Source of the DNA: a virus
Direction: 5' to 3' (one strand)
Length of the DNA stretch: 41,209 nucleotides
Virus record (IMG/VR): IMGVR_UViG_3300043395_001664
Span: 1 to 41,209 of that record
A model generated the notes under the pieces. It did no database searches, was not told the origin of the DNA, and saw only the letters and a program-made list of their open reading frames with translations. Positions 8,841 through 41,209 of this stretch are shown one piece after another (within the stretch, counting starts at the first letter, position 1; each line of letters starts with the position of its first letter). A program made the translations under genes and the position numbers.

Positions 8841-9499
8841 AGAAAGCAATTGTTGTTTTATCTGGCGGTATGGATTCAACAGCCGCCTTGGCCCATGCCA
8901 TTAACAATCCTGATTTAATGGTCATCGGGTGCTTAAATTTCCAGTATGGATCAAAGCACAATCTTCGAGAGGCTGGAGCCGTATTCAATATCTCAAAGCA
9001 CTACAAGATCCCATACACAATGATTGATCTTGATTTTATGAATAAGCACTTCTCATCTAATCTTCTAAAATCAGGTGGTGAAATACCAGAGGGCCACTAT
9101 GCCGACGAGTCGATGAAGAAAACTGTGGTCCCTTTTAGAAACGGTATTATGCTCTCAATCGCCGCAGGTTTCGCCGAGAGCAAAGGTGCCAATGCGGTCA
9201 TCCTTGGCAATCACTTTGGCGACCATGCGATCTACCCGGACTGCAGAAAGGACTTCTCAGAGGCCATCAAGCAAGCTATTCGCCTCGGCACCTATGCCCA
9301 GGTTGAAGTTCTAACGCCGTTCGTCAATGTTGATAAGACAGAGATCGCAAGGATCGGCTCAAAGCTGGGTGTTCCGTTTGAGCTGACTTGGACCTGCTAC
9401 AAGGGCGGGCAAAAGCATTGCGGGAAGTGCGGCTCATGCACTGAGCGCAAGGAGGCGTTTCAACTAGCAGGTGTTACAGATCCCACGGAGTATGAATGA
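8837..9499 (+). CDS. queC: 7-cyano-7-deazaguanine synthase QueC
   Basis: QueC uses ATP and ammonia to turn 7-carboxy-7-deazaguanine into preQ0. The PP-loop ATP motif SGGMDS is at residues 9-14. RNGIMLSIAAGFAE and LGNHFGDHAIYPDCR are family motifs. The C-terminal zinc site is CYKGGQKHCGKCGSC, with all four Cys present. At 220 residues it has normal QueC length, with no fused amidotransferase domain of the Gat-QueC kind that makes archaeosine-type bases. Start GTG overlaps the dpdA stop by four bases; the end overlaps queD by four. Confidence 0.96.
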   Translation: MKKAIVVLSGGMDSTAALAHAINNPDLMVIGCLNFQYGSKHNLREAGAVFNISKHYKIPYTMIDLDFMNKHFSSNLLKSGGEIPEGHYADESMKKTVVPFRNGIMLSIAAGFAESKGANAVILGNHFGDHAIYPDCRKDFSEAIKQAIRLGTYAQVEVLTPFVNVDKTEIARIGSKLGVPFELTWTCYKGGQKHCGKCGSCTERKEAFQLAGVTDPTEYE

Positions 9500-9921
9500 T
9501 CAAGGCGGTTAGGAAGATTCACTTCTGCTCAGGGCACAGGGTTCTGAATCACGAATCAAAGTGCGCAAACCTTCACGGTCACAACTATGTTGCATGGGTC
9601 TATGCAGAGGTCCCTGAGCTTGATTCAATTGGACGGGTGATTGACTTCTCTGTACTTAAAGAAAAGGTCGGTGGGTGGATTGATGAGCACTGGGATCATA
9701 CGACCTTGCTCTTTATTGAGGACCGTGAGCTTTTAGAAATCTCGATTGCCTTTGAAAAGAATAAGAAAGTTTTTATCTGCCCCTTCAATCCCACGGCTGA
9801 AAACATGGCGGAGTATATTCTAAAGGTCGTTGGTCCTGAGGTATTGGTGGGGACTGGTGTCAGGCTCACAAAGGTTGAGTTATGGGAGACTGAGAATTGT
9901 AAGGTTGAGGTGAGCTTGTGA
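9496..9921 (+). CDS. queD: 6-carboxytetrahydropterin synthase QueD
   Basis: QueD turns dihydroneopterin triphosphate into 6-carboxytetrahydropterin, the second step to preQ0. Zinc-binding histidines are seen in FCSGHRV and in LHGHNY, with the conserved Cys of SKCANLHGH between. HWDHTTLL and the late Glu of LWETENCK complete the active-site pattern. Length (141 residues) is normal. Four-base overlaps (ATGA) with queC and with queE mark tight translational coupling. Confidence 0.95.
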   Translation: MIKAVRKIHFCSGHRVLNHESKCANLHGHNYVAWVYAEVPELDSIGRVIDFSVLKEKVGGWIDEHWDHTTLLFIEDRELLEISIAFEKNKKVFICPFNPTAENMAEYILKVVGPEVLVGTGVRLTKVELWETENCKVEVSL

Positions 9922-10544
9922 ACACCTATCTGATCAAGAAAATCTTTGGTCCTACAATTCAAGGCGAAGGATCAAGGGCAGGCACGCCAGTTAAGTTCAT
10001 TAGGTTTGCTGGCTGCAATAAGTGGTCAGGAAAGCCAGAGCATAAATCAAAGTCCATTTGCTGGTACTGTGACACTGACTTTCACGGTGGCGAGAAATTA
10101 ATGATCCCTGAAATCATAAGTAAGCTCGACGCCCTTGGCCCAGTTAAGCAAGTGGTGCTATCTGGTGGGGAGCCGACGCTACAGATTGATGAGCCGCTAC
10201 TCGTCGCCCTTGCTCATGCTGGATACACACTGCACCTTGAAACCAATGGATCAAAGGACATTGACACCTTGGCTGGGTACTTCACCCACATCACAATGAG
10301 CCCGAAGCAAGGGCTTGATGAAACAAGGCTCAGGTGGGCGCATGATATAAAGCTACTCTTCCCTTGGATCAAGCCCGAGATATCGGCAGAGGCTTTTAAA
10401 ACCTTCTCAGCCGACAACCGGTTCATCCAAACCCTCTGGACTGATGAGTACAGGGGAAACCTTGATAGGGCAATTGAGTGGCTGATGCTTAACCCACAGT
10501 ATCGCTTATCTGTTCAAACCCATAAAATAATAAACGTGGAGTAA
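9918..10544 (+). CDS. queE: 7-carboxy-7-deazaguanine synthase QueE (radical SAM)
   Basis: QueE rearranges 6-carboxytetrahydropterin to 7-carboxy-7-deazaguanine. The N-terminus has GPTIQGEGSRAGTPVKFIR. The iron-sulfur cluster ligands have the QueE-type spacing of Cys, 14 residues, Cys, 2 residues, Cys (Cys 33, 48 and 51), which differs from the usual radical SAM CxxxCxxC. SGGEPTLQ and HLETNGS follow. At 208 residues it is full length. The start is GTG at 9918, overlapping queD. Confidence 0.95.
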   Translation: MNTYLIKKIFGPTIQGEGSRAGTPVKFIRFAGCNKWSGKPEHKSKSICWYCDTDFHGGEKLMIPEIISKLDALGPVKQVVLSGGEPTLQIDEPLLVALAHAGYTLHLETNGSKDIDTLAGYFTHITMSPKQGLDETRLRWAHDIKLLFPWIKPEISAEAFKTFSADNRFIQTLWTDEYRGNLDRAIEWLMLNPQYRLSVQTHKIINVE

Positions 10545-10546
10545 TC

Positions 10547-11089
10547 ATGGAAGATTTAATTAGACAGATCCTAAAGCACATCGGCGACGACCCAGAGCGC
10601 GAGGGCTTAAAGGATACGCCGAAGCGGGTGGTGAAGGCTTGGCTTGAACTCTACGCAGGCTACAAGCAGGACCCGGCTGAGATCCTGTCCACGGTCTTTG
10701 AGGAGGGGTCATGCGATGAGATGGTTATACTTAAAGACATTGAGTTTGTTTCAACCTGTGAGCACCACATGGAGAAGATTCTAGGGACCGTTGATATTGG
10801 CTATGTGCCGGATAAGCGGGTGGTGGGTCTTTCAAAGCTTGCGCGTCTGGTTGATTGCTTTGCCCGCCGCCTTCAGATCCAAGAAAAGTTCACCACCGAT
10901 ATCGCTTCAGCCATCACTGAGCACCTAAAGCCCAAAGGGGTGGCCGTGGTCGTTAAAGCCTCCCATCAGTGTATGAGTTGCAGAGGGGTGAAGAAGTCCG
11001 GCGCCACCATGATCACCAGCTCAATGACAGGGATCTTTCGAGAGGACCCAAAGGCCCGATCTGAGTTTATAGACCTCTGTAAAGCCTAG
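10547..11089 (+). CDS. folE: GTP cyclohydrolase I
   Basis: FolE opens GTP to dihydroneopterin triphosphate, the first step to preQ0 and also to folate. Zinc ligands are present in CEHH (about residue 69) and in HQCMSCRGV near 145. GLSKLARLVDCFARRLQIQE and SSMTGIF are family motifs. The 180-residue length is normal. It is the last gene of the operon that begins at the ParB-like gene, two bases after queE. A small hairpin (AGCCTA-GCTAA-TAGGCT) overlaps its stop codon but lacks a T-tract. Confidence 0.96.
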   Translation: MEDLIRQILKHIGDDPEREGLKDTPKRVVKAWLELYAGYKQDPAEILSTVFEEGSCDEMVILKDIEFVSTCEHHMEKILGTVDIGYVPDKRVVGLSKLARLVDCFARRLQIQEKFTTDIASAITEHLKPKGVAVVVKASHQCMSCRGVKKSGATMITSSMTGIFREDPKARSEFIDLCKA

Positions 11090-21455: not shown

Positions 21456-21549
21456 TTAACCTTCTCAGGTCTACGGATCTGAAGAACTTATCTAACAACA
21501 GTAAGGCTATAACGACAAGTAGAGCCACATCAACAAGGCTTAACTGCAT
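21310..21549 (-). CDS. Inner-membrane spanin-like protein (Rz-like, 79 aa)
   Basis: ATG at 21549 overlaps the stop of the transglycosylase gene (TGATG). It has one N-terminal membrane span (VDVALLVVIALLLLDKFF, residues about 6-23), then a charged helical stretch (RRLNELEKMVRDQEIHN, RANERTIRLNR) and a short Gly-rich end. The place after the muralytic enzyme and the embedded second gene suit an Rz/Rz1-type pair, though it is shorter than most Rz proteins. Confidence 0.6.
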   Translation of the reverse strand: MQLSLVDVALLVVIALLLLDKFFRSVDLRRLNELEKMVRDQEIHNSVYGTSHADLVKRANERTIRLNRGGSGEGTPPRG

Positions 21550-22025
21550 CACACTAACTCGGGCTTAAGGATTGATTTAACCTTGTCCACATAATACTGG
21601 TTCACATACTCCCCGCTGGGTCGCTTGATTGGGGAGCCAGCATTGTAGGAGGCAATCACATCATCAAGTGATGACTTGTGGGTTTCAAAGAGCTTTGCGA
21701 GCTTCATACACCCATACTTAGCGCCGACGAAGGGATCAAGGAGCTGCACGAGGGAGCCAGTATGCCCGAGTTCCCGCGCCACGGTTCCCATGACTTGCAT
21801 AAGCCCAAAGCTACAAGCCTGAAGCACTCGCTCTGTTTCAACTGTCGTATTACAGAGTTTTGCGAAGTGCTCCATATTGTACTGGTATTTCCACCCAGGC
21901 TCATAGCGGATAGCCATTGAATCACCACCAGATTCAACTTCACAGATAGCGAGGGCTACCATGACAGGAACATCTTGTTGCTTTGCGAATCTATGAACGA
22001 TGTCAATGATTCGGTGTGAGAGCAT
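21549..22025 (-). CDS. Endolysin: SLT-type lytic transglycosylase
   Basis: The 158-residue protein shows the transglycosylase order ALAICEVESGGD (catalytic Glu near residue 29), SFGLMQVMGTVARELG and ASYNAG, then a Tyr-rich end (YVNQYYVDKVK). These enzymes cleave the glycan strand of peptidoglycan with formation of an anhydro end. It has no signal peptide, so it needs a holin to reach the cell wall; the preceding small membrane protein is the candidate. The lysis neighbours support the call as the endolysin. Confidence 0.9.
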   Translation of the reverse strand: MLSHRIIDIVHRFAKQQDVPVMVALAICEVESGGDSMAIRYEPGWKYQYNMEHFAKLCNTTVETERVLQACSFGLMQVMGTVARELGHTGSLVQLLDPFVGAKYGCMKLAKLFETHKSSLDDVIASYNAGSPIKRPSGEYVNQYYVDKVKSILKPELV

Positions 22026-22026
22026 T

Positions 22027-22272
22027 TTACTTATCCAGTTTAGGCAGCTTCACCCGCACCGCCCAATCAAGGACGTACTGAACAACTGCGTAGGCTTTCG
22101 ACGCTTCAACGGCACTTAGGATCTCGTTGTCCTTGATCGTCTCTGTGGCATCAACGTAGGCCCTGAGAAGGCTAAAGAGTGGTTTATTGATGGAACTGAG
22201 TACATAGAGCGCGGCCAGAACCCCAGCCAAGGTGGGATATTTAGAAACCAGATCGATGATGAACAGCTCCAT
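22027..22272 (-). CDS. Putative holin (81 aa)
   Basis: One base separates it from the endolysin gene. It has a hydrophobic segment at about residues 13-29 (TLAGVLAALYVLSSI), a less hydrophobic one around 60-72 (AYAVVQYVLDWAV), and a Lys-rich end (VRVKLPKLDK) as in many holins. The call depends on size, membrane segment and place. Confidence 0.55.
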   Translation of the reverse strand: MELFIIDLVSKYPTLAGVLAALYVLSSINKPLFSLLRAYVDATETIKDNEILSAVEASKAYAVVQYVLDWAVRVKLPKLDK

Positions 22273-22298: not shown

Positions 22299-23630
22299 CT
22301 ACGCCCTCATCTCTGATGGTAACTTAAGTTTGCTTAAATCAAAATAGAGCCAGTTTACAGCCTCCGGCCTAGACTCCAGATCCGCACTCAACCAATGCCT
22401 CGTTATCTCAACTGACTTCTGGCGCAGCGCAGCGGCTAGCTTTGGGTCTTTAGTCATGTCGGCCATGCGGCGGTAGCAGTGGGTAATCGGGGCCAGCACG
22501 TTACCCGCACCAGGAGAGGCTAGGATACATTTCTGCCAGTATTCCAGGGATAGCTCAAACTGGTCGTAGCGCATCGCCAGGTCAGCCATAAAGCGCCAGG
22601 TTAGGTAGCACTCCCCGCAGGCCGCCTTGAACGGCTCGTAGAACTCCTTTACCAGGTCCTCGAACTTGACCTCCTGCTTATGGGAGTGAAGCTCATGGCG
22701 GCGGTGCTCATAGTTGGCCATCCATGCGTCTGGGTAGTTCGGATAAGCCTTCACTGCCCCAGCGAAGTCCTGCCGCTGGAAAGCCACATAAGCCTCCTTG
22801 ATGTGGGCCATTGTCGCCTCGATCACGGCTGGATCTTCGTACTCTGGCTCTAGCTTCATAAGCTCATCGTTACGCTTGCACAAGTAGGTGCTGCCATAGA
22901 TCACCCCGTCATACTTAACAACCTCAAGACCGGCCTTCTTAAGAACCGTCTCGAATAGTTTCCTGCTCCAGGCGTTGATGTGATTCGTGTCGTAGTAGTA
23001 CTCAAGATCAAACCCTGGCAGGCCAAAGTTCACCATCGCATCGAACCAGGTGGGCACAGAGATGTAAAGCATCCCGTCCTCGGCCAGGGCCAAGGCGTAT
23101 TCTCTTAACCGCTTATCGGCGTCCATCTGGTGCTCGGCCACCTTGTAGGACGTGATCAGGTCGTACTTCTTGGTCGTATCAAAGTCCTCAGTTAGCATGA
23201 GGTCATGCTCGTAGTACGCCACGCGCCGGTAGGTGGTCGTGAGCTCAGTGCCGTAGAACTCCCCTTTGGGAAAATAATTGCGCTTCAGGTGGTTAAGGAA
23301 CAGCCCATAGGCCGCGCCAATCTCACCGATTACTGGGGCTTCTTTCCTGGCCTTTAATCGCTCAAGCTCTGGACCTATGAAAGCATCATGGTTGTGCAGC
23401 TTCTTCATCCCAGTGTACAGGTTCCCGACCTTCGGGATCGCACGGTAATCAGTTCTGTAATACGCCTTGATTTCCTCCTCAGTCTTATAGAGAGCAGGAT
23501 AAGAAACCAGGCCACACCCCTGACAGATTGCCATGCCCTTTGGAACGATCCGGTATTGATCAACGCTTTTCCACTTATCGGTTGCGTCGCACACGATGCA
23601 GCGCATGTTATGTTTTACTGCTGATTCCAT
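22299..23630 (-). CDS. Zinc-knuckle SAM methyltransferase with a TPR-like tail
   Basis: The 443-residue protein starts with a zinc-binding domain (RCIVCDAT and ICQGCGLV, residues about 11-40) as in sugar C-methyltransferases and SAM-dependent enzymes of nucleotide-sugar pathways. The methyltransferase core is at about 95-215 (GEIGAAYGLFLNHL, YDLITSYKVAEHQ, DGMLYISVPTW). The region from about 270 is helical, like TPR repeats (WMANYEHRRHELHSH, FELSLEYWQKCI). It likely methylates a sugar or a surface glycan, given the neighbouring sugar genes. AGGAG precedes ATG by eight bases; the start overlaps the end of the DAHP-synthase-like gene. Confidence 0.82.
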   Translation of the reverse strand: MESAVKHNMRCIVCDATDKWKSVDQYRIVPKGMAICQGCGLVSYPALYKTEEEIKAYYRTDYRAIPKVGNLYTGMKKLHNHDAFIGPELERLKARKEAPVIGEIGAAYGLFLNHLKRNYFPKGEFYGTELTTTYRRVAYYEHDLMLTEDFDTTKKYDLITSYKVAEHQMDADKRLREYALALAEDGMLYISVPTWFDAMVNFGLPGFDLEYYYDTNHINAWSRKLFETVLKKAGLEVVKYDGVIYGSTYLCKRNDELMKLEPEYEDPAVIEATMAHIKEAYVAFQRQDFAGAVKAYPNYPDAWMANYEHRRHELHSHKQEVKFEDLVKEFYEPFKAACGECYLTWRFMADLAMRYDQFELSLEYWQKCILASPGAGNVLAPITHCYRRMADMTKDPKLAAALRQKSVEITRHWLSADLESRPEAVNWLYFDLSKLKLPSEMRA

Positions 23631-24466
23631 TTAGGCAACTCCTGTCTGGGTTTCATTATTTTCCTAATCCCATCAACGCGGTAGATGATCGATAAAAACG
23701 TATCAAGGCTCACAGCCTGGTCAGCGTCCGATAAACTCTTCTCAGGATCAGTATGGGTTTCAACCAAGATCCCATCAGCACCAGCCGCAACCCCCGCTAA
23801 GGTCATCGGTTCAACTAGGTCCCTGCGCCCAGTGCCGTGAGAAGCGTCAACTAGGATCGGGATATCTGTTAAAGCCTGTACTGCAGGGATCATGGAAATT
23901 GATAGATCCCAACGACAGTGCGTCGCTTGCGTCGATGATCCGCGCTCAATTAGCACCGGGTCACAAAGCTGGCAGGCCGTTAGTAAATGCTCTGCCGCCC
24001 CTAAGAACTCATCAATGGTTGTACCAGGGTGACGCTTTAAGAACGTCTGTCTGCCGTATGCTGCAACCTTTCTAAGTAGGGTATAGTTCTGCATGGATCT
24101 ACAGCCGATCTGAAAGCAGTCCGCGTACTTGGCAACAATCTCCAGTTGGGTTGGTGAGTAATCAAGAACCTCGATAATACACTTTAGCCCGTTCTTATGA
24201 GCGGCATCACTATAGGCAGCGATGAGCTTCTCATCTATCAGCCCAAAGTTCTTCCCAGGGTAGGTGCCCGCCCTGAACACACCACCACGAAGATGGGTTG
24301 CCCCTAAGACAGACACGATCCTTGCGATCTGGTGAATCTGTTCCTCTGACTCCACCGAGCAAGGGCCAGCTATGATGATAAACTTCTGATCCTCTGGTGG
24401 CACATAAGCCTCAACCAGTGGGTACCTCGGCTCAGGCCCCCAGGTTCTTCGCTTCGCGAAATCCAT
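23615..24466 (-). CDS. DAHP/KDO8P-synthase-family aldolase, divergent
   Basis: The 283-residue protein follows the type I-beta DAHP synthase fold: AGPCSVESEEQIHQIA near residue 34, LRGGVFRAGTYPGKNFGL near 60, QIGCRSMQNYTLL, LKRHPGTTIDEFLGAAE, LIERGSS, ILVDASHGTGRRDLV and GADGILVETHTDPEKSLSDADQ. DAHP synthases join phosphoenolpyruvate with an aldose phosphate. The strand that normally reads FKPRTSP is changed to FRAGTYP and the usual TRNTLD block to CRWDLS, so the aldose may not be erythrose 4-phosphate. With the cytidylyltransferase-glycosyltransferase two genes upstream, a role in making an acidic 3-deoxy sugar is more likely than aromatic synthesis. Confidence 0.88.
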   Translation of the reverse strand: MDFAKRRTWGPEPRYPLVEAYVPPEDQKFIIIAGPCSVESEEQIHQIARIVSVLGATHLRGGVFRAGTYPGKNFGLIDEKLIAAYSDAAHKNGLKCIIEVLDYSPTQLEIVAKYADCFQIGCRSMQNYTLLRKVAAYGRQTFLKRHPGTTIDEFLGAAEHLLTACQLCDPVLIERGSSTQATHCRWDLSISMIPAVQALTDIPILVDASHGTGRRDLVEPMTLAGVAAGADGILVETHTDPEKSLSDADQAVSLDTFLSIIYRVDGIRKIMKPRQELPKWNQQ

Positions 24467-24479
24467 ATTATCCCCTCGC

Positions 24480-24938
24480 TTAAAACGAACTATCCTTTAG
24501 GAACTTCTCAAACTCTACATCTACCTTGCGCTTGTACTCGTGAGCTTTCCTAAAGTCCGTAGCAATCTTGTGTGTTATCTTTGTTCTGCTCTTGATAATT
24601 TGTCTAGCAGTTTTCTCTATGGACTTCTGCCATCTGATAAACACCTCGGCCACGGCTGGCGTAGATAGACCAGACTTCACAAGTTCATCCATCCCAACCT
24701 GAAGCCCGTAGCGAACCTTTATGAGCTCCTGTAGATCCTTCTTCTTTAAGCACCGATTGAGCCAGGCGTTCCACTTGTGATGAGACTTAACGGCCTTGAA
24801 TGATTGCGATGCATCAACATTCGCTGCAACATCATCGCCGAATGATGAGCTTGGATTGTAAAGGAATTCATCTTCGAACCCCTCAAGGCGCCCTGAGTAA
24901 AGTTTAAGGATGTCTATTGCTGGCCACTTCCGCGCCAT
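24480..24938 (-). CDS. Hypothetical helical, basic protein (152 aa)
   Basis: ATG at 24938 begins inside the end of the glycosyltransferase gene. The protein is mainly helical and Lys-rich: RYGLQVGMDELVKSGLSTPAVAEVFIRW, KTARQIIKSRTKI, KAHEYKRKVDVEF. There is no catalytic motif that I recognise. The position inside the sugar gene set, coupled with its neighbours, suggests it serves the same pathway. Confidence 0.65.
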   Translation of the reverse strand: MARKWPAIDILKLYSGRLEGFEDEFLYNPSSSFGDDVAANVDASQSFKAVKSHHKWNAWLNRCLKKKDLQELIKVRYGLQVGMDELVKSGLSTPAVAEVFIRWQKSIEKTARQIIKSRTKITHKIATDFRKAHEYKRKVDVEFEKFLKDSSF

Positions 24939-26229
24939 ACTTTTCAACGAGAGATTGCTTTATCTGCTCCCGCTCCTGTGGGTTAGATTTAGATAGCGAT
25001 GTTGGGTGTTGACGATAGAAGAACGTAGGGCGCGAAAAGTACCCGATCCTAAGCTGCTCCCTAGCCCTGGCGTAAAGGTCCACCCCTTCAAACCCCCGCA
25101 TCCCCTCGGTGAACTTTATATGATTTAAGGCAGAGGTTCTAAAGATAGACCCACCAACATGGTGCTGCTGTTCTGGCTGCTGGATGATACTCGTCGAGCC
25201 ATAGTAGTTAGCAGGGTAGATTGCATCCACTGGCCGCGCACCAATCTCCCCTAACAACTCACGACATGACGTTTGGCTTGTGAAATAATCGTCAGCATCA
25301 AGCCTAACAATGAACTTTCCGCGAGCGTTCTTTAGGGCTATGTTACTTGATGAGGCAAGCCCAATGTTCTTAGCGTTCCTAACGAGCTTCACATTCTGGT
25401 ACCGTGATTTGAACTTTGCCATGCGGTACATGGTTTTATCAGTCGAGCAATCATCGATCAGGATATATTCAAAGTTCTTAAAGCCTTCTTGCGAGGCTAC
25501 GGACTCCATCGTTTCAGATATCCACTCGTCAGCGTTATAGGCACAGGTGTAGATAGTGAGATTGGGCAAGCGGTTAAGGTCGTTCACCCATCGCTGCGAC
25601 TTACAGAACGCCTCCACCTGGCGCTTCGTGCAGTCGTTCCCTAAGGTAGAGAGCACCGTCTCAAGGAATACCAGATCCTCCTCATAGTCACACAGAAGCC
25701 TTACACCCTTCTCCCCTGTAAAGGGCATATCCCAGATGTTGTCCGTCACCGCCCTGACCGCATAGGAAACGTGCTCAACCCCAGTGAACTTCTCCCTTGC
25801 TAAGGCTAAGGCATCAATGGAGATGATCTCAAACCCAGATCCAGCTGTAAGGGTTGACGAGAACAAGTAGTCTAGCTTCTTTGCCTCGAACTCCTGAAGT
25901 GCTGAGAGCACGTCACATGGGTCAACGAATATCTTATCATGCGTCACCCTGATAACCGTATCGATGCCCTGCGAGATTGCAGCGTCATAAAGCCTCGCAA
26001 GCGGGTCGTGGTCGTGGCCCGTATACCAGGAGACACCGCCGGTATTGTTCGCCCAGTGCTTCCACTGATCCATCTCTGACTCAGGGGTGGCGACAATGAT
26101 CGGTAGCCCAGTCTCGCCCAAGCGATTCACTAGGTGCTCTAACAGCGGTACGCCATTGATCGGGGTGAGTGCCTTGCCAGGAACCCGGCGCGACTGTAAG
26201 CGGGCACATACTATAAAGGCTGCTTTCAA
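24904..26229 (-). CDS. Fusion of SpsF/KdsB-type cytidylyltransferase and GT2 glycosyltransferase
   Basis: TTG at 26229 follows GGGAGAG. The first ~215 residues match the CMP-sugar synthetase family (FIVCARLQSRRVPGKAL for CTP binding, ATPESEMDQWKHWA, GHDHDPLARLYDAA, RVTHDKIFVDP). From about 225 a family 2 glycosyltransferase begins: LTIYTCAYNADEWISE, YILIDDCSTDKT, then the DxD-type acidic motif RLDADDY, and EQQHHVGGSIFRTSAL, RGFEGVDLYAR. One polypeptide would thus activate a sugar acid with CTP and transfer it to an acceptor. The CMP-sugar is unknown. Gene overlaps with its neighbours show operon coupling. Confidence 0.85.
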   Translation of the reverse strand: MKAAFIVCARLQSRRVPGKALTPINGVPLLEHLVNRLGETGLPIIVATPESEMDQWKHWANNTGGVSWYTGHDHDPLARLYDAAISQGIDTVIRVTHDKIFVDPCDVLSALQEFEAKKLDYLFSSTLTAGSGFEIISIDALALAREKFTGVEHVSYAVRAVTDNIWDMPFTGEKGVRLLCDYEEDLVFLETVLSTLGNDCTKRQVEAFCKSQRWVNDLNRLPNLTIYTCAYNADEWISETMESVASQEGFKNFEYILIDDCSTDKTMYRMAKFKSRYQNVKLVRNAKNIGLASSSNIALKNARGKFIVRLDADDYFTSQTSCRELLGEIGARPVDAIYPANYYGSTSIIQQPEQQHHVGGSIFRTSALNHIKFTEGMRGFEGVDLYARAREQLRIGYFSRPTFFYRQHPTSLSKSNPQEREQIKQSLVEKYGAEVASNRHP

Positions 26230-26230
26230 C

Positions 26231-27175
26231 TTAACTCTCCCACGGGGCTACGAACCCACCGTATGACTCAAATGATGAACAGGTCTTGCAAGGTGATTTC
26301 TCAAACGCCTTGCCAGACTTTAACTCCTTACGAAGCCCTTTAGCCGCCAGCGAATTGAAGATGTCTTTAAGGGATTGCGTGTTGGCGTCCCCAATAAGTA
26401 GGTCCCCGGCAATCGATGGGCAGCATGGTGCCACCTTCCCGTCATGGTGGACTATGAGTCTAACGAACGCTTGCTTGCAGGGTATTCGTACAGAGACATC
26501 ACGAGATCGTGTGACGACTGTAGATAGGTCCTTTCCAACCCTTCCCTCCACGCAATCTCTAACAGAGGCGACTGCAGAGGGCCATCGACTCTTAATCTCC
26601 CATTCGAGATCCTCATCTTTATTGAGATTGGTTCTGACCGCTTGGATGACAAGAGTATTCTCCCTGCCGGGATAGTTATAGAACTTCGTGATATTAGCAA
26701 GCGTGGCCTCGTACTTTGACCCCTGCCTTTGTTTCTCAAATATATCCTTAATGAACGAATCAAAGCTGACCTTAACCTTTGTTTGGTTACACAGCCCACG
26801 GAAAATGTCCTCTCTATCGTGTCGAAAATTAAAGTTAGAATTTGTGAGTCGATCAATGAAGGTGCTCCCCTTGGCTCGTAGCTTTGCACGGAATGTAATC
26901 TCCTCGAAGTTTGGGTGTAGCGTAGACTCGCCACGATGATTCATCTTGATGGAGTGAACGCCTAAGTCCGCCGCCTCTGTGATGAGGCTTATGGCAAGCT
27001 CGCGTGACATAAAGGATCTCTTAAAAGGAATTGTGCCTGGAGAGCTATGATAGCAGTAGCCACATGCGTTATTGCATCGAGATGATAACTCTAGTGCTAT
27101 ATCGACGGGCTTTGTGAGGGGGAGATGCTGACCATACCGATACTTTGCTCGGTATATAAATCGGCGCAGATCCAT
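26231..27175 (-). CDS. Radical SAM enzyme with SPASM/Twitch-type C-terminus
   Basis: The 314-residue protein has the radical SAM cluster motif CNNACGYC near residue 33 and NHRGESTLHPNFEEI, the equivalent of the SAM-binding Gly-Glu motif. The C-terminal block CKQAFVRLIVHHDGKVAPCCPSI, GDANTQSLKDIFNS and SPCKTCSS is that of SPASM enzymes, which carry one more iron-sulfur cluster. These enzymes modify peptides or small molecules; in sugar gene sets they perform deoxygenation or epimerisation. The substrate here is not deducible. It is followed directly by the fused cytidylyltransferase gene. Confidence 0.86.
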   Translation of the reverse strand: MDLRRFIYRAKYRYGQHLPLTKPVDIALELSSRCNNACGYCYHSSPGTIPFKRSFMSRELAISLITEAADLGVHSIKMNHRGESTLHPNFEEITFRAKLRAKGSTFIDRLTNSNFNFRHDREDIFRGLCNQTKVKVSFDSFIKDIFEKQRQGSKYEATLANITKFYNYPGRENTLVIQAVRTNLNKDEDLEWEIKSRWPSAVASVRDCVEGRVGKDLSTVVTRSRDVSVRIPCKQAFVRLIVHHDGKVAPCCPSIAGDLLIGDANTQSLKDIFNSLAAKGLRKELKSGKAFEKSPCKTCSSFESYGGFVAPWES

Positions 27176-27474: not shown

Positions 27475-28692
27475 CTACGCAATCCTAACAGCGTAGATCA
27501 TCACGATACCAGCCCCACCAGCACCACCGGCACCACCCGATGCTGGTGAGTTGTTAGAGCCACCGCCGCCACCGCCGCCAGCCCCGTAGCCGCCTGGAGA
27601 TCCGGCTGTAGAGTTACCCTGTCCCCCAGCACCGCCTGCGTAAATAGCAGCACCGCCGCCTCCGCCACCACCGCCGTCACTGTTGGCCGCGCCACCGGCA
27701 CCACCAGCAGCGTAGTCAGATGGACCGCCAGCAGCACCGGCAGACGCACTGTTATCCCGCCTTGCGCCGCCCCCGCCACCACCACCGCTCCATGTCCCAG
27801 CAACACCAGCACCTGGGGAGCCAGTCCCGCCAGCACCAGGCCCCGCGATAGCACCGAACATTGACCCACCACCGCCGCCGCCTCCACCATTTCCAGCGGT
27901 GGCATTAGCCCCACCGGCAGCTCCAGCCTGAAACAAGCTAGAGGCTCCAGTGCCACCGTCATTAGTTCCAGTTCCACCGGCACCTTTGCCACCACCATAT
28001 CCGCCATACCATGTCGCCACAGCAGTTCCATTTAGGCTGATGGTAGTTGTCCCGCCATTGCCGCCAGCAGAAGCAGTGTTTGAGTTATCAGTTCCTGCAG
28101 TACCAGTAGCGCCAGCCGTTCCGATGGTAATGCTTAGGGTATCGCCCTGACTAACTGACACCAGGATGGTCCCGTACATAGCGCCACCCCCGCCGCCGCC
28201 TCCAGCTCCACCGCCGCCGCTTCCTGCGCTATCTCGACCACCACCGCCGCCACCGCCTCCGCCGCCTCCTGATCCTTTGATCCAAAGGTATGACGTGTTG
28301 CTTGGCACAGTGTAGGTTCCAGTCGCGGTGATCGTCGAGGCCGTGAGCATAGTGGTTGACGGATCGATTCCAGATAGACCAGCAGGACTTATTGTTGCCA
28401 CGGTAACACTATTAATTAGAAATCTAAACTGCCCTAAGGTTGCGTTGACGTTCCCAGTGAACTCTAACGCCGCAGTGCTTGTTGATGTCCTAAGGTCTAC
28501 AGTGCCGCCGTAGAACTTAAGCCACCGATGCTCTGATGATCCTAAGTCATGCGTGTTATCAGAGGCCGATGCGGTGTCGGTATTTATCGGTACGATGGTG
28601 CCTCGGTAGTTCGAGAAGTTAGTATTAACTTCCGATGACCTTGCTTTACCGCCTACGGTGAACGAGAAGAAATTGGTAATTGTATTTGGCAT
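27475..28692 (-). CDS. Tail fibre / adhesin with polyglycine-rich tip
   Basis: ATG at 28692 overlaps the stop of the previous gene (TAATG). The first ~65 residues (FTVGGKARSSEVNTNFSNYRG ... THDLGSSEHRW) are a fibre attachment module shared with the gene at 30584-31294. From about residue 145 onward long Gly tracts (up to 11 in a row) alternate with short loops, ending in GGAGIVMIYAVRIA. Gly-rich tracts like these fold as polyglycine II bundles in the tip adhesin gp38 of phage S16, whose loops between tracts bind the host receptor. The end is conserved in such glycine-rich domains. This is the best candidate for the receptor-binding protein. Confidence 0.85.
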   Translation of the reverse strand: MPNTITNFFSFTVGGKARSSEVNTNFSNYRGTIVPINTDTASASDNTHDLGSSEHRWLKFYGGTVDLRTSTSTAALEFTGNVNATLGQFRFLINSVTVATISPAGLSGIDPSTTMLTASTITATGTYTVPSNTSYLWIKGSGGGGGGGGGGGRDSAGSGGGGAGGGGGGGAMYGTILVSVSQGDTLSITIGTAGATGTAGTDNSNTASAGGNGGTTTISLNGTAVATWYGGYGGGKGAGGTGTNDGGTGASSLFQAGAAGGANATAGNGGGGGGGGSMFGAIAGPGAGGTGSPGAGVAGTWSGGGGGGGARRDNSASAGAAGGPSDYAAGGAGGAANSDGGGGGGGGAAIYAGGAGGQGNSTAGSPGGYGAGGGGGGGSNNSPASGGAGGAGGAGIVMIYAVRIA

Positions 28693-30587
28693 TATTTGGC
28701 TCCAACACAATGAAGGATGAAATCAACCGCACTGCAAGCTGTAGACGCATCATCCTCACAGTCCACACTCACTGCTGTTGCAGAAGTCGCATCGACGTTT
28801 AGCTCTAAGCCCGTTGAATACCCGCCAGCCGTAGCCGGTGTAGCGGTGCAGTAAGGCGTGGCCGAAAATGTCCCAGTGGTTAGAGTTACGGCACAGGCGC
28901 CGCCAGAGATGTTGCCAATACTAGAAACCCAAGTCCCTTGCTGCGACATGATTGATGAGCCAGCATCACAGTTGAGCTTTGCCGCCTCGATGCCAGTCAC
29001 ACCGTTAGCGGTATTCGTCACCGAGTTGACTAGGTATGGTGTGGCCATCGGCGTTAGTAGGTCCCTAATGGTCCACCTGATTGTGTAGTGATAGGTCGTG
29101 TTTGCTTGAATTGCTCCAGTGCCGCTTGAGGCTGCCATCTGTATGCTAAACGTCGTTGATGTACCGGCAGAGGTTGGAGTATGCCAGCCGCAAAGCTCCA
29201 TCGGCAGTCCACCAGAGGCCGGTTCGTTCTGTGACCTCTGCGCTATGGTCGTGGTTCCAGCCAATAACTGATAGGCGTTAGCCGCTCCAGTCGTGTCGCC
29301 ACCAGACCGGAACGATGCGCAAGCCTCATAGGTGCTGGTCCTTGGCAAAGTGATAGTAAACCCTGGAGTGAATGTCAGAGCACCAGCCATCGCACTTGTG
29401 ACAGACCCAGCGTTGACGTTCTTGTACTCAGTCCATGAACATGATGCGTCACCAGCCGGATCACCATAGGCGGTGTTATTCCTAGTCCAGGCACAGTTTG
29501 ACTCATGCCGACCCTCATAGAAAAACGGCACCTGGCTCGGCCTATACCCCTGGTCGTAGCTTGTGGGGAATCGGTAGATCCAGAATTGAAGGGACTTATT
29601 CGAGATTGAGTTATCAATAGCAATGGCGCCGCTACCAGACGCTCCGTAGACCTCAAAGGTGTGGTTGGCCGCAGTCGTATAGTTAAAATGTCCAGCAAAC
29701 GTAACACCGTCGGCAGCACTCGCAGTTGACCCGCAGTTGCCACGGCCTGACGATGTAGTTCCGTCGTTGAGCGTAAACGTGCAAGGGTTTCCAGTACCAT
29801 CCTTAAGTGTCGGGACTGAAACCCAGACCTCATAGTTTCCTGGCGGCATGTTGTTCACAGTGATCTTTGGCAGATCCGCGTCGGTGGTTTGAATCACTCC
29901 AGGCCCCGCGTTAACCTCAACCGTTGGCCCAGGGCAATCTGAATCCGACGCAAAAGCCCCAAGAGCCGTGTTGGTCCTAGACCACCCAGCGCAGTTTGTA
30001 GTGGTCGCAAAGTAGGCAGAGCCTACAAAGGTTGCTTGAGAAATATTCGAGATGTTCACACCAGCCGCAGGACCTAGGTAGCAATCATCTACCGTGATCG
30101 AAGGCTCATCAGCCTGGGCAAGTAGCCTTAAGCTCACGGTTCCCGATGAGGGGAAAATAAAGTTCACCGCATTTAAGAGCGGCAAGGTTGACGAAGTGAT
30201 CGACTGCGAGGCAATGGTTAAAGACCCATCAAATACCTCTAGCTTATGCGTCGCAGTTCCACTGGGAGTCATCACGCGGCAAAATGCCACTCCATTATTG
30301 CTGTAAAGCCCTGCCGGTATGGTCACGGCAAAGCTCGAAAGCGTATCATTAGAGGCCGCAGCGTCCCAAGTAGCTGACGCCTTGCCGCTGAGAAGGTTTG
30401 AGCCTGTGATTGTGATGTTGAATGTCCCAGCAGATGCGGTCCACTTGCCAACCCCCGCCCCTTTGCCGTTCTCAAAGCCCCCGTTGGTGAGGATCGACTT
30501 AGGGTATATGTCCTGCTTGTCCACGTCGTTAAGCGCCGCGTAAGCAGTGAGCGTGACCATCGAGAGTAAAAATAAGTACTTCATCAT
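28692..30587 (-). CDS. Cys-rich tail or surface protein with Sec signal peptide (631 aa)
   Basis: The N-terminus MMKYLFLLSMVTLTAYA-ALND is a classical signal peptide. The 610-residue mature part is rich in Ser, Thr, Gly and Asn, beta-strand-like, with 16 Cys, an even number. ILTNGGFENGKGAG opens a carbohydrate-binding-module-like domain (about residues 33-170). A motif is repeated: NCAGWSRTNTALG ... DCP ... VNAG (about 198-230) and NCAWTRNNTAYG ... SCSW ... VNAG (about 367-400). The gene lies between two fibre genes and overlaps both. It may be a virion fibre that is exported or oxidised outside the cytoplasm, or a protein shown on the infected cell. Confidence 0.8.
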   Translation of the reverse strand: MMKYLFLLSMVTLTAYAALNDVDKQDIYPKSILTNGGFENGKGAGVGKWTASAGTFNITITGSNLLSGKASATWDAAASNDTLSSFAVTIPAGLYSNNGVAFCRVMTPSGTATHKLEVFDGSLTIASQSITSSTLPLLNAVNFIFPSSGTVSLRLLAQADEPSITVDDCYLGPAAGVNISNISQATFVGSAYFATTTNCAGWSRTNTALGAFASDSDCPGPTVEVNAGPGVIQTTDADLPKITVNNMPPGNYEVWVSVPTLKDGTGNPCTFTLNDGTTSSGRGNCGSTASAADGVTFAGHFNYTTAANHTFEVYGASGSGAIAIDNSISNKSLQFWIYRFPTSYDQGYRPSQVPFFYEGRHESNCAWTRNNTAYGDPAGDASCSWTEYKNVNAGSVTSAMAGALTFTPGFTITLPRTSTYEACASFRSGGDTTGAANAYQLLAGTTTIAQRSQNEPASGGLPMELCGWHTPTSAGTSTTFSIQMAASSGTGAIQANTTYHYTIRWTIRDLLTPMATPYLVNSVTNTANGVTGIEAAKLNCDAGSSIMSQQGTWVSSIGNISGGACAVTLTTGTFSATPYCTATPATAGGYSTGLELNVDATSATAVSVDCEDDASTACSAVDFILHCVGAK

Positions 30588-31294
30588 GAGAAAGTGACCT
30601 CACATTGTTTTGGCAGGAATCTAACATCTGACGTAGCTGTGTCGGTATCTCGATAAAGTCTAACAAGAATAGTGTCCGATGCAGAGATGGCCACGGAATT
30701 TATCTCACCGATAGAGCTTGAAATATCTAGCGAGATTTTCTGGACCTCACTATCGTTTGAGGATGACATAGTTATAGCCGCGTTCGTCGTTGTTCGCTGG
30801 TTGGTAGTCGAGGCAATGTCATCAACCTCTGCCCTAATCAACGTAGCCTGTGCCCTTAGCAAGATGTTCCCCGACGTATCAGGGGAGTAGGCTTTGATCT
30901 TTAACGCAATGGGGTTGCCTGCCGTATAGGTAGACGGGACGTGAACCTCTGTGTACAGCTCCTGTGAAGCACCAGCGAGGAACTTATAAACCGCTGCGTT
31001 ATTCTCAACTTCCTTAACTGGAGCATTGGCCGGTTCCTCCCAGATGATCCCGCCGCCCCCGCCACCCCCGCCTACTGCATTAGTTGAGTTTATGGTGGTG
31101 ACGTAAAGGGTGCCCCAGCGATGGTCCGATGAACCTAGATCATAGGCGCCACTCGTGGCTGCCGTTGCAGTATCTGGGTGAACAGGGAGAAAGTGACCTC
31201 TAAACACACTGAAGTTGTTATTGTGCTCAGATGATCTAATTAAGGCTCGCTCCGCGAAGGTGTAGAAGGCTGTTATCGTTGCGCTTGATGGCAT
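30584..31294 (-). CDS. Tail fibre-like protein (236 aa)
   Basis: The first ~62 residues (FAERALIRSSEHNNNFSVFRG ... AYDLGSSDHRW) repeat the attachment module found at the start of the glycine-rich adhesin. A Gly tract of eight (about residue 77) then joins a beta-rich C-terminal domain (ALKIKAYSPDTSGNILLRAQATL ... ILVRLYRDTDT). The stop overlaps the start of the signal-peptide protein. It is a virion component of the tail tip, by module and position. Confidence 0.78.
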   Translation of the reverse strand: MPSSATITAFYTFAERALIRSSEHNNNFSVFRGHFLPVHPDTATAATSGAYDLGSSDHRWGTLYVTTINSTNAVGGGGGGGGIIWEEPANAPVKEVENNAAVYKFLAGASQELYTEVHVPSTYTAGNPIALKIKAYSPDTSGNILLRAQATLIRAEVDDIASTTNQRTTTNAAITMSSSNDSEVQKISLDISSSIGEINSVAISASDTILVRLYRDTDTATSDVRFLPKQCEVTFS

Positions 31295-35096: not shown

Positions 35097-35634
35097 CTAT
35101 CTGCCTCTCTCCTGGCCTTCTCTGCTGCCTTCGACTCGAACTCAGCGCCTACCGATGCGACCATAAGATTAAGACAGAAGTCCTCAATGCTTAGGTTCGC
35201 AATAACAGATGGTAGAACTCCGTACCTCTGGGCTATAGCATCTATGTCTGCAACCTTCGAGCGAGCTAGGAAAAGTACATTTTTTTTTTGCCATAGGTGT
35301 ATCCAATAACTTCAGCGTACAGTTTGTTAGCGAGCTCCCAATCAGTAAACAGGTTATCTACTAAAACCCCTTCGCCATCGGCCTTGCGCTTTAGCTTCGG
35401 CTCAACAACTCCGGCCAGGAACACGTCACGGTAGTGTGATCTAACGCGCTCCATGTTCGGCTCACTGATTTCTTTCTTCTGCTCATAGGTCTGGAATATC
35501 TGGGCCACAGCCTGTGACCCGTCCATGTAGCTGAACGGGTCTATTTTCTTGATGCGGAACCTAACCCCGTTCACAGAGATTAGGCGCGTCTCATTTAAAG
35601 CACTCTCCAGGCTTTTATTCCAGAATCTAAGCAT
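35066..35634 (-). CDS. Long tail assembly chaperone, made by -1 frameshift (189 aa)
   Basis: The short chaperone frame (35266-35634) continues in the -1 frame from a run of ten A: the joined frame has 569 bases plus one re-read base, 190 codons. The extension begins NVLFLARSKVADIDAIAQRYG, keeps a helical coding pattern (IEDFCLNLMVASVGAEFES, EKARREADRC) and ends with a stop at 35066, inside the first codons of the tape measure gene. Without the shift this stretch would be a 170-base gap in a tightly packed operon. The long form corresponds to gpGT of lambda, which brings tape measure and tail tube together. It is not a pseudogene: both frames are intact. Confidence 0.85.
35266..35634 (-). CDS. 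Short tail assembly chaperone (122 aa)
   Basis: The frame runs from ATG 35634 (overlapping the tube gene stop as TAATG) to TAG at 35266. It is acid/basic mixed and helical (SVNGVRFRIKKIDPFSYMDGSQAVAQIFQTYEQKKE; VRSHYRDVFLAGVVEPKLKRK; WELANKLYAEVIGYTYG), typical of gpG-type chaperones and of their place between tube and tape measure. The last codons before the stop hold the A-run where the frameshift occurs. Confidence 0.85.
   Translation of the reverse strand: MLRFWNKSLESALNETRLISVNGVRFRIKKIDPFSYMDGSQAVAQIFQTYEQKKEISEPNMERVRSHYRDVFLAGVVEPKLKRKADGEGVLVDNLFTDWELANKLYAEVIGYTYGKKKMYFS
35279..35290 (-). promoter_or_regulatory. Programmed -1 frameshift slippery site (C then ten A then T)
   Basis: On the minus strand the frame reads GGC AAA AAA AAA ATG TAC. 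Ten A in a row (35289-35280) let both tRNA-Lys slip one base back, after which reading is AAA AAT GTA CTT. This is one of the strongest slippery sequences known in bacteria. The stop of the zero frame is 11 bases downstream. Confidence 0.88.
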
Positions 35635-36686
35635 TAGGTGTAGCTCGATGTTAAGTTTCTAACAACGGCCCGCAGAGCATACCCGCTTGCGCTAGACACA
35701 TCCTTTAAGACGTTAAAGGTTACCTCACTGGTCAGGATCTCATCAGGCCCACTGATCTCTGGGTCTCCAGCATCGGCAATCGTCATGCGCGGGATCTGAA
35801 ACTTTATCATGCGCTTGAGCGACGACGTGGTGAGCGTCGATCCTAGGAACTCTAGCTCTGCGGCAAACTCAGTTCCAGCCATCATAGCCGCATAAGCAGT
35901 GGTGGTGTTGAACCGCATGGTGACTTTAAAATCAACCGTTGCTATGCCAAGGGGGAGAATATCAAGCGTCTCACTCCCGATTCTACGGCTCTCTGAATCG
36001 GCCTTTAGGTTGTTGTTGATAGATAGCTCACAGCTCTGCACATGCCACACAGTTGCAGTGGTGACAGACGCAAGAAGCCCTGAACCAATCGATACCCGCC
36101 CGTTAACAAAGGACAACGGCTCATGCGAGCTGTTCGAGTAGGCCGCTGAGATATCGTTAGAGGTCTGAGTGCAGTCCTTACCGATTAGCCCAAACGAGCA
36201 CACTAATGGCTCGTCAATCTCTGCTGTGAATGTGACCTCGTTAACCCTTAACCCAAAGTACTCAAATACCCGGCCAGAGGTAGCTTGCCCTTTACGGGTA
36301 TTGATGGAGATTGAGCTATATGATCCGCTTAAGTTACCCAGCGGGATGGTGTGGTCGAATGACATGCCGCCCACAGTTTCACTCGCGTTAGTGGCCGTGG
36401 TAATTGCACCACCAAGGGCGTTCTGCAGTAGGTAGTTAAATGCCAATGATTCGGCATAGGCTAAAGTCTCAACCTCACCCTCGACAGTCTTTGAAAGACC
36501 AACGTCCTTCGAGTAGCTGCGCCCTACAACAATCTCCTCGATGATCTTTCGCTCCTTTGTTACTTTGAGCGAACTGGACATGAACTCCAGGAAAGCGGTT
36601 GAAGTAACCTGTGTGCCGTAGGTCGTCTCCCGGCCCACGGCGAGATAAGAACCCCATCCCTCTACGCTTGAATCACCGACAGACAT
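35634..36686 (-). CDS. Major tail tube protein
   Basis: The 350-residue protein starts SVGDSSVEGWGSYLAVGRETTYG, a typical tail tube start, and has the two beta-rich halves of the tube family (FDHTIPLGNLSGSYSSISINTRKG; VNEVTFTAEIDEPLVCSFGLIGKD; WHVQSCELSINNNLKADSESRRIGS), including the T-F-T-A-E and S-I-N-N-N-L patterns. It follows GGGAGAG. Position before the chaperone pair fits. It is also the gene right after the Maf/MptE-like gene. Confidence 0.9.
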   Translation of the reverse strand: MSVGDSSVEGWGSYLAVGRETTYGTQVTSTAFLEFMSSSLKVTKERKIIEEIVVGRSYSKDVGLSKTVEGEVETLAYAESLAFNYLLQNALGGAITTATNASETVGGMSFDHTIPLGNLSGSYSSISINTRKGQATSGRVFEYFGLRVNEVTFTAEIDEPLVCSFGLIGKDCTQTSNDISAAYSNSSHEPLSFVNGRVSIGSGLLASVTTATVWHVQSCELSINNNLKADSESRRIGSETLDILPLGIATVDFKVTMRFNTTTAYAAMMAGTEFAAELEFLGSTLTTSSLKRMIKFQIPRMTIADAGDPEISGPDEILTSEVTFNVLKDVSSASGYALRAVVRNLTSSYT

Positions 36687-36699
36687 TTAAGCTCTCCCG

Positions 36700-37701
36700 T
36701 TAAATAGTTGTTTGAACAAAGTTATTCCAGTGCATCTCACCGATGGACCGCAAGCTGTTTTCAATCATCTGCATCTCACGCATCAAAGCATCCCTACGCC
36801 TCATGTCTGATCTTACAATGTCCCTGTGCGCGGGCTTAAACATATAAGGCAACTGCTCGGACAGAGGTCTAGCCTTTACCTTCCCTAAGATCCCACCAGG
36901 GGAACAGTTCACAATGGGGAGCTTGAAAATCTGCAGGTAATTCTCAAGCCACTTAGCTGAGAACAAAAGGTTAGACGAAGTAAACACAATCTCACTATTG
37001 CGGTTTACAGCATAAATGTGACGCATATAGTTATGCTTGCCATTGGCCTTCTTATCAAACGCGTAGTAGCTACCGTCTGGCTTCCATGAGTAATCAAAGC
37101 CTACGAGCAGGATCTTATCGTAGCCAAAGAAGTTGCGGCGGGCTTTGTTATCGGACTGGGTGGCGAACACAACCATAGCGTTTGAGACATTCGTAGCGGC
37201 GGCAATCAGATTAGGGCAGCCACCGGCAAGGGCTGCGAACTCAACCTCGCTGCGGAGAACGTCGAAGTTAACGAAGAAGTATTTATCTTTCCAGTTCCCA
37301 TTGCCCGACCACATGGGATTAGCCGTGACGTTCATAAAGAGAATGGTCTTGTCTAGCTGATCTTTCCACGGCGCCATGTACTTCTCATAATTCACCTTAG
37401 CGTCGGCGATCAGGCAGAAGGTTGGCTTGATACCGTGGTTAAGTAAATGCCCTAAGGTTTTATCGCAACACAGGATATCGACTGAGTTTTTATGTTCTTT
37501 GAGAATGTCGATCTGCTCCTCGAATGACGCCCCGTTGGCTACGATCACCAGGGCACGGCCAACGCCTGAGTTCTGAAAATCCTCTAGGCTCTTAAATGGC
37601 GCATATTTCGAGTGCTCTCTGGCGTGTTTACGCCATAGCTCCCCGTGCTGTTTTATGACCTGTTCTGATTGTGCCTTCGTGTTTAGATTGTTAATAGCCA
37701 C
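36700..37701 (-). CDS. Maf / MptE-like (DUF115) protein
   Basis: The 333-residue protein contains RALVIVANGASFEEQIDILKEHKNSVDILCCDKTLGHLLNHGIKPTFCLIADAK (residues about 50-103), the N-terminal pattern of DUF115, shared by the archaeal 6-hydroxymethylpterin pyrophosphokinase MptE and by bacterial Maf proteins, glycosyltransferases that move nonulosonic acids to flagellin. Later blocks (GCPNLIAAATNVSNAMVVFA; ILLVGFDYSW) resemble the second part of that domain. GTG starts the gene. It lies among tail genes, 14 bases from the tube gene, where no enzyme is needed for tail building, so virion glycosylation is an attractive idea. A pterin kinase role is the other option. Confidence 0.8.
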   Translation of the reverse strand: MAINNLNTKAQSEQVIKQHGELWRKHAREHSKYAPFKSLEDFQNSGVGRALVIVANGASFEEQIDILKEHKNSVDILCCDKTLGHLLNHGIKPTFCLIADAKVNYEKYMAPWKDQLDKTILFMNVTANPMWSGNGNWKDKYFFVNFDVLRSEVEFAALAGGCPNLIAAATNVSNAMVVFATQSDNKARRNFFGYDKILLVGFDYSWKPDGSYYAFDKKANGKHNYMRHIYAVNRNSEIVFTSSNLLFSAKWLENYLQIFKLPIVNCSPGGILGKVKARPLSEQLPYMFKPAHRDIVRSDMRRRDALMREMQMIENSLRSIGEMHWNNFVQTTI

Positions 37702-40930: not shown

Positions 40931-41209
40931 TTACTGCTCGGTTAAGTGCTTGGCGCCGAGTTTGTCCGCGTACTTCTTGGCAACAACACGATAGGCAGCC
41001 GCATAGGATACCTTATTGTCTTGCTGGTACTTGGCAACTTCCTGCTCCAAAGCCTCAACAGTTTCTTTGCCTTCACCTTCCTTGCGCCCTTCGTGCGAAC
41101 CCTCTTCTAGGTTAACGTCTCCGGCGGCCTTGAAAAGCTTTAGCAATTCTTTGATCACTTCTTCTTTCTTAAGAGCCTTCTCTCCGACGCTGTACTGAGC
41201 CACTTCTTT
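40931..41209 (-). CDS. Protease/scaffold C-terminal part, cut by the right edge
   Basis: The frame is open from the right edge (41209) to a stop at 40931; the GTG at 41203 is probably internal. The end is Lys/Glu-rich and helical (KEEVIKELLKLFKAAGDVNLEEG; VEALEQEVAKYQQDNKVSYAAAYRVVAKKYADKL), as at the end of Mu gpI/gpZ-like protease-scaffold proteins. It is next to the decoration and capsid genes. With the left-edge protease it likely forms a single gene interrupted by the window ends. Confidence 0.65.
   Translation of the reverse strand, partial: KEVAQYSVGEKALKKEEVIKELLKLFKAAGDVNLEEGSHEGRKEGEGKETVEALEQEVAKYQQDNKVSYAAAYRVVAKKYADKLGAKHLTEQ

Follow-up and report, generated by a model that had tools for sequence, protein, structure and literature searches.

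The window examined here is the whole of a 41,209-base IMG/VR viral record (IMGVR_UViG_3300043395_001664). Between its fibre-like genes and its lysis genes lies a cassette of five genes, which was analyzed together with a Maf/PseD-like gene and the neighboring tail gene as a candidate pathway for making a sugar acid and attaching it to protein. A preliminary description of this DNA had placed five genes between the fibre and lysis genes, and their coordinates, strand and families were all borne out by a check of the open reading frames (ORFs) and by Pfam matches. The five ORFs of 22299-27175 are all open on the - strand and tightly spaced, with gaps of 1-13 nt or overlaps (26231/26229; 24947 inside 24904; 24480/24466; 23630 inside 23615). 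The cassette, its boundaries and the Maf/tail pair are as follows.

27475-31294: fibre-like genes, upstream boundary of the cassette
26231-27175, - strand: radical S-adenosylmethionine (SAM) enzyme with a SPASM (twitch) region (PF13186, 4.6e-11; PF04055, 4.5e-8)
24904-26229, - strand: cytidylyltransferase (SpsF/KdsB/NeuA-like, residues ~1-215) fused to a family 2 glycosyltransferase (GT2, ~222-430) (PF02348, PF00535)
24480-24947, - strand: small helical protein of 155 aa with no family match; helix-bundle model, predicted local distance difference test score (pLDDT) 74.6
23615-24466, - strand: aldolase with the fold of 3-deoxy-D-arabino-heptulosonate 7-phosphate (DAHP) synthase (DAHPS) and an altered acceptor loop, proposed 3-deoxy-ulosonate synthase (PF00793, 9e-46)
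22299-23630, - strand: class I SAM methyltransferase with an N-terminal Cys4 zinc knuckle and a TPR-like C-terminus (PF13489, 6.4e-11)
22027-22272, - strand: putative holin/small membrane protein, assigned by size, position and a hydrophobic stretch; downstream boundary
21549-22025, - strand: SLT transglycosylase/SLT-family endolysin (PF01464, 4.1e-10); downstream boundary
36700-37701, - strand: Maf/PseD-like protein of 333 aa, proposed ulosonyl transferase (PF01973, 1.7e-16)
35634-36686, - strand: putative major tail (tube) protein, proposed acceptor; lies before the tape-measure gene and is a conserved neighbor of the Maf-like gene

Scans of viral contigs with the aldolase returned three and then sixteen relatives, and the comparison set was about 45 related contigs, all from uncultivated viruses known from their genes alone. 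Diverged phages share the order radical SAM enzyme, SpsF-GT2, (helical protein), aldolase, methyltransferase wherever a contig covers the region, and the same gene order is found at ~30-70% identity in dozens of viral contigs. The preliminary description had proposed looking for the block in related phages, and its order recurs among the ~45 related contigs. Chance gene neighbors were rejected as an explanation because the order recurs in so many of them. In a distant group (L012, L021, L022 and L023) the cassette lies upstream of the terminase and portal genes, not after the fibres, with its order kept. The methyltransferase is present in 16/16 genomes of the first relative set, and in the nearer relatives conservation of the aldolase (56-70% identity) equals or exceeds that of the major capsid protein (46-65%). 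A search of 50,697 phage records gave no match to the Maf-like or radical SAM protein and no full-length match to SpsF-GT2, and no isolated phage with the cassette was found in that collection.

The cluster cysteines of the radical SAM enzyme, a CX3CX2C motif (C34/C38/C41) and a C-terminal set (C233/C251/C252/C296/C299), are invariant in 15 phages. The nearest solved structure to its twitch region is BtrN, a radical SAM dehydrogenase of an aminocyclitol (2e-19), which is compatible with an oxidation on a sugar and is not proof of one. One cassette has a second radical SAM-like protein (CNFNCSYC) inserted after the first (L242, 8885-9973). In the SpsF-GT2 protein, PF02348 spans residues 4-146 (5.5e-15; 56.2 bits versus a cut-off of 22.6) and PF00535 spans residues 226-369 (4.2e-26). 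Identity to 14 relatives is 29-52%, and the N-terminal R..S.R.P.K nucleotide-binding motif is present and nearly invariant in the alignment (R10/S13/R15/P17/K19). The nearest solved structures are the cytidylyltransferase 6oew (7e-28, whole domain) and KdsB for the first domain and chondroitin synthase for the GT2 part.

The helical protein has 10 homologues that occupy the same slot and no PDB fold match at E<0.5 in a fold search; a weak HEPN match (0.043) was not believed. A protein of ~110-155 aa precedes the aldolase in near and distant cassettes alike (window 24480-24947; L012 9659-9991; L021 9174-9512), and when the helical protein was compared by profile with its 110-112 aa counterparts by position in L012 and L021, no similarity was detected. 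The N-terminal CxxC...CxxC of the methyltransferase (C11/C14/C36/C39) is invariant in four aligned sequences, and its C-terminus has weak TPR-like matches.

The aldolase slot and its exchange with NeuB

Homology of the window aldolase to PF00793 spans its full length (9e-46, residues 25-258). Its scores are below the curated DAHPS cut-offs (233 bits versus 267.75 for TIGR01361 and 258 bits versus 335 for PRK08673) and below the gathering score of the NeuB family PF03102 (15.3 versus 22.1 bits). In DAHP synthases, the phosphate group of erythrose 4-phosphate is bound by the Arg and Thr of the KPRT motif. In 29/29 bacterial homologues the sequence of the acceptor loop is KPR[TS][SN]P. The viral alignment comprises 29 sequences, one of them truncated at the loop, and KPR[TS] occurs in 0 of the 28 that cover it; 20/28 read [RS]AGT[YF]P, with RAGTYP in the window. 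The ERGIRTFE...RNT segment has likewise become ERGS...RWD in the main viral group. The columns C, R, K, R, H, E and D are kept in nearly all viral aldolases, and we take these, from general knowledge, to be the metal positions Cys, His, Glu and Asp and the Lys/Arg residues that bind phosphoenolpyruvate (PEP). Loss of KPR[TS] suggests that the acceptor is another aldose, perhaps unphosphorylated or longer, because the KPRT Arg and Thr would bind the erythrose 4-phosphate phosphate. A search of the open-access literature on the KPRT motif found nothing useful. A single pattern scan across 84,980 species genomes gave 31 loci, none of them a cellular RAGT-loop homologue. This result and the GC content of the cassette (45-53% versus 51% for the phage) led to the rejection of a recent insertion of host genes.

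The content of the slot was read from scans that used the radical SAM and SpsF-GT2 alignments as queries, with no selection for the aldolase. Some cassettes lack the DAHPS-like gene and encode instead a ~225-aa protein between the helical protein and the methyltransferase. All of the replacements tested (9/9) match NeuB PF03102 above the gathering score (4.8e-10 to 2.2e-21), and the nearest solved relatives of these short NeuBs are pseudaminic acid synthase, sialic acid synthase and SpsE. Among 43 non-redundant readable cassettes, the slot holds a DAHPS-like gene in 24, NeuB in 15 and both in 2, and is empty in 2 that have NeuB elsewhere on the contig; the slot of L193 was assigned by reading its frame. 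Mapping the NeuB state on the SpsF-GT2 tree gave 9 changes, at least 5 of them forced by well-supported branches, a count that is approximate because the bootstrap is not fully settled. The close sisters L188 (NeuB) and L202 (DAHPS) differ in their slot with support of 100/99. In the phages with both genes, the NeuB copy deviates at conserved residues (the GYSDHT and EKHFT histidines in L175; the KxQ glutamine and RD pair in L185), as if a replacement were in progress.

Two further observations concern the slot. Contig G021, whose slot is empty, has a compact block elsewhere (L303, 90-2516) of a PseF-like cytidylyltransferase, a longer NeuB and an epimerase. HNH/NUMOD4 homing-endonuclease-like ORFs lie inside the cassette in L175 (11353-11886), L179 (9495-10004) and L199 (8964-9470), one of them exactly between the NeuB and DAHPS-like genes. 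Such ORFs could drive the exchange of the aldolase gene.

The loss of KPR[TS], the scores below the DAHPS cut-offs and the exchange with NeuB make a 3-deoxy-2-ulosonate synthase the simplest reading of the slot. Its product is most likely a 3-deoxy-2-ulosonic acid, not DAHP, and an aldolase making DAHP only appears unlikely.

A Maf/PseD-like gene beside the putative major tail protein gene

The Maf/PseD-like gene is absent from the preliminary description and lies outside the coordinates that it covered. The PF01973 score of its product is 60.9 bits versus a cut-off of 34.6, and its only NCBIfam match is the flagellin modification protein PseD (7.9e-9). The NF050051 score of 34.6/670 bits reflects the domain only; the protein has neither the three-domain architecture nor a full-length PseD match. 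An AlphaFold2 model built from 14 homologues has a pLDDT of 87.4. Its best PDB match in Foldseek is the Maf glycosyltransferase of Magnetospirillum (5mu5; E 2e-11, TM 0.57 by query length), a moderate superposition with a root mean square deviation of 5.9. Further fold matches are the archaeal HPPK MptE (1.5e-5) and sialyltransferases (~2e-3), and a sequence profile also finds 5mu5 (2e-5). The assignment to Maf is thus that of a predicted single-domain fold with a moderate superposition. Maf enzymes O-attach nonulosonic acids (NulOs) to Ser/Thr of flagellin, their central PF01973 domain resembles sialyltransferase, and some accept CMP-Neu5Ac and CMP-Kdo (PMC11339370).

The Maf-like gene is placed between the head-tail genes and the gene for the putative major tail protein, in which Ser and Thr make up 23.4% of residues. 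In loci picked by the tail protein and having enough upstream sequence, the Maf-like gene is directly upstream of the tail gene in 74/74, and no tail module without it was found among the 74. Distant lineages still have it before the tail gene, with no more than one small ORF between. Co-occurrence with the cassette is nearly strict. The Maf-like gene was found in 13/15 records picked by the aldolase and in 13/16 of a more distant set, and 4/5 misses are fragments of 15-24 kb. Conversely, when contigs were selected by the Maf-like gene alone, 18/18 of those 35 kb or longer had the cassette. A distant Maf-like gene (L302, contig G016) has an in-frame TAA, which would be a pseudogene, recoding or an assembly error.

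Accessory sugar genes and operon layout

Two more sugar genes lie far from the cassette coordinates.

5918-6802, - strand: NAD-dependent nucleotide-sugar epimerase/dehydratase, accessory (PF01370, 1.2e-50; GalE, 2.2e-40, below cutoff)
5103-5918, - strand: short UDP-glucose/GDP-mannose dehydrogenase-like protein (UGDH-like), accessory (PF03721, PF00984)

The UGDH-like protein lacks the C-terminal UDP-binding domain and has a readable GYGGHCFPKD active-site motif. In relatives G009 and G012, the run UGDH-epimerase-terL-portal-...-Maf-like-tail-...-rSAM-SpsF-GT2 (rSAM, radical SAM enzyme) is contiguous on one strand, so the epimerase and UGDH-like genes would head the same operon as the cassette if the window contig is circularly permuted. 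The ORF at 40931-41203 resembles the cut end of a ~350-aa gene (cluster 16) that relatives have between dec and portal. The contig therefore appears to begin and end within a gene, which makes circular permutation of the record probable. Homologues recur in other cassettes: UGDH and epimerase between the radical SAM and SpsF-GT2 genes in L173, a full-length UGDH in the cassette of L177, and an epimerase between SpsF-GT2 and the aldolase in L206, L208, L244, L249 and L251. The preliminary description had made both enzymes part of the route. Their place at the operon head and their recurrence agree with that proposal, but they are classed as accessory because neither has a match in several long, near-complete relatives (G002, G005, G007 and G013). 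A very distant cassette (L256, 9326-10601) has a KduI/IolB-family isomerase and a ~200-aa protein between SpsF-GT2 and the DAHPS-like gene.

The early operon at 7451-11089 (+ strand) encodes ParB-like, queuine tRNA-ribosyltransferase/DpdA-like, QueC, PTPS/QueD (PF01242), QueE and GTP cyclohydrolase I/FolE (PF01227) proteins, a probable 7-deazaguanine DNA-modification set.

Proposed pathway, alternatives and known systems

From the protein families, conserved order, slot exchange, motif change, Maf-like fold and tail adjacency that sequence comparison establishes, we infer a substrate, product, acceptor and order of steps, and roles for the radical SAM enzyme, GT2 domain, helical protein and methyltransferase. 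The enzyme in the fourth slot (DAHPS-like here, NeuB-like in sisters) would condense PEP with a host aldose to give a 3-deoxy-2-ulosonic acid, and the SpsF/KdsB-like domain would convert it to the CMP-sugar. The Maf/PseD-like protein would transfer the ulosonic acid to Ser/Thr of a virion protein before assembly, most likely the tail tube subunit, whose candidacy follows from its position. The GT2 domain may add a further sugar, possibly from a UDP-uronic acid in phages that have the UGDH and epimerase, and the radical SAM enzyme and methyltransferase may modify the glycan, the latter conceivably by methylating the sugar. The preliminary description had proposed a route that builds, activates, methylates and attaches an acidic sugar. 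Its synthesis and activation of an acidic (ulosonic) sugar are well supported by the replacement of the DAHPS-like gene with NeuB and by the rewritten acceptor motif; its attachment step missed the Maf/PseD-like gene, the most informative candidate transferase. We regard a late phage pathway that O-links a CMP-activated ulosonic acid to a virion protein, probably the tail tube, as moderately probable. A broader proposal is more tentative: a lineage-wide, self-contained ulosonic-acid system with a tail-devoted Maf-like enzyme and a repurposed DAHP-synthase ancestor repeatedly swapped with NeuB, possibly making an undescribed acid.

Several points weigh against this pathway. The DAHPS-like enzyme is far nearer by sequence to DAHP synthase (1e-76) than to NeuB (0.014). 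The window phage has no recognisable NulO-precursor genes and would therefore have to use host sugars. GT2 enzymes normally take NDP-sugars, not CMP-sugars, which leaves the fusion of SpsF and GT2 without a simple explanation. Archaeal HPPK, the second-best fold match, also falls within PF01973, and the tail adjacency could reflect nothing more than an inherited operon order. Relatives that have lost just the cassette or just the Maf-like gene were not found, so no independent losses bear on the linkage of the two.

The same ulosonic-acid pathway might instead decorate the host surface (lipopolysaccharide, capsule or flagellin) to shield the cell or prevent superinfection. O-antigen conversion typically involves GT2 and CMP-sugar genes, a PHROG match is GtrB-like (4.3e-10), and Maf normally acts on flagellin. 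However, the cassette genes include no recognisable flippase and no recognisable partner that is polyprenol-linked or membrane-anchored, their proteins have no strong transmembrane stretch, the cassette sits in the late structural operon beside lysis genes, and the Maf-like gene always adjoins the tail gene. The absence of a strong transmembrane stretch favors a cytoplasmic protein acceptor over an envelope glycan, and we consider host-surface decoration unlikely. The preliminary description had left virion and host surface side by side; position and the lack of a membrane anchor or flippase tilt the choice toward the virion.

Less probable still is a reading in which the Maf-like protein serves as an unrelated assembly factor or a pterin kinase, with the GT2 domain attaching the cassette glycan to the fibres. 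This would fit the second fold match to archaeal HPPK, the adjoining fibre genes and the fusion of GT2 to the CMP-transferase domain, but fold, NCBIfam and sequence all favor Maf, and the Maf-like gene co-occurs almost strictly with the cassette. There is very little to recommend an ordinary auxiliary metabolic gene supplying DAHP for aromatic synthesis in infection. The best family matches are to DAHP synthase and PHROG 5045 is already named for phage DAHP synthases, yet the acceptor motif is lost in 28/28, the curated DAHPS cut-offs are not reached, the gene is exchanged with NeuB and embedded among glycan genes, and no other shikimate gene was recognised among the genes scanned; an ordinary DAHP synthase was rejected on the motif, the cut-offs and the slot exchange. 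Hypermodification of phage DNA by the cassette with the 7-deazaguanine genes, in place of a protein or glycan, is equally remote: QueC/QueD/QueE/FolE/DpdA-like genes are present in the early operon, but the cassette is in the late operon, its kin are sugar-acid, Maf and SPASM enzymes, and the early-operon proteins have no matches in most relatives.

If tail glycosylation by a ulosonic acid is correct, phages carry and long maintain a sialic-acid-type protein glycosylation so far known from bacterial flagella, here directed at a virion protein, and their Maf-like protein would be a glycosyltransferase for proteins with only a single domain. The slot would also record how DAHP synthase, which opens the aromatic pathway, was naturally converted into an enzyme that makes a sugar acid and for which NeuB can stand in functionally; this would give a direct handle on a new substrate specificity. 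A search of the open-access literature on ulosonic acids on phage virions found nothing useful.

One of the closest known systems is Maf/PseD O-glycosylation of flagellin with nonulosonic acids in Campylobacter, Magnetospirillum and Clostridium, which also combines a ulosonic acid synthase, a CMP-transferase and a PF01973 transferase linked to a tube-forming protein. The system proposed here differs in being phage-encoded, in having a single-domain Maf-like protein of 333 aa rather than three domains, in its place beside a tail protein and in the DAHPS-like synthase of many members. That synthase shares the fold, C/H/E/D metal site, PEP-binding Arg/Lys and full-length homology of type I-beta (KDO8PS-like) DAHP synthase, but lacks the KPR[TS] loop, has ERGS...RWD for ERGIRTFE...RNT and has no aromatic pathway context. 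NeuB/PseI/SpsE synthases occupy the same operon slot in sister phages, and the same PEP and aldose chemistry is expected of them; by its sequence the window enzyme falls outside NeuB, and the slot NeuBs are short (~225 aa) and without the SAF domain. Virions of the mycobacteriophages Che8 and Rita are reported, as cited in PMC11256854, to carry glycans on their proteins, with glycosyltransferases encoded by the phages; the gene set is a different one, and no ulosonic-acid synthase or CMP-activation is mentioned there. Stenotrophomonas phage DLP4 has a NeuB gene in its lysis module, noted as unexplained and as seen in other phages (PMC6469090). It shares with the cassettes described here a NeuB-family gene near lysis genes and differs in being a single gene with no conserved cassette described (PMC6469090). 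With the pathway proposed here, NeuB, SpsF and radical SAM genes that otherwise lack an explanation in the late operons of phages gain a testable reading.

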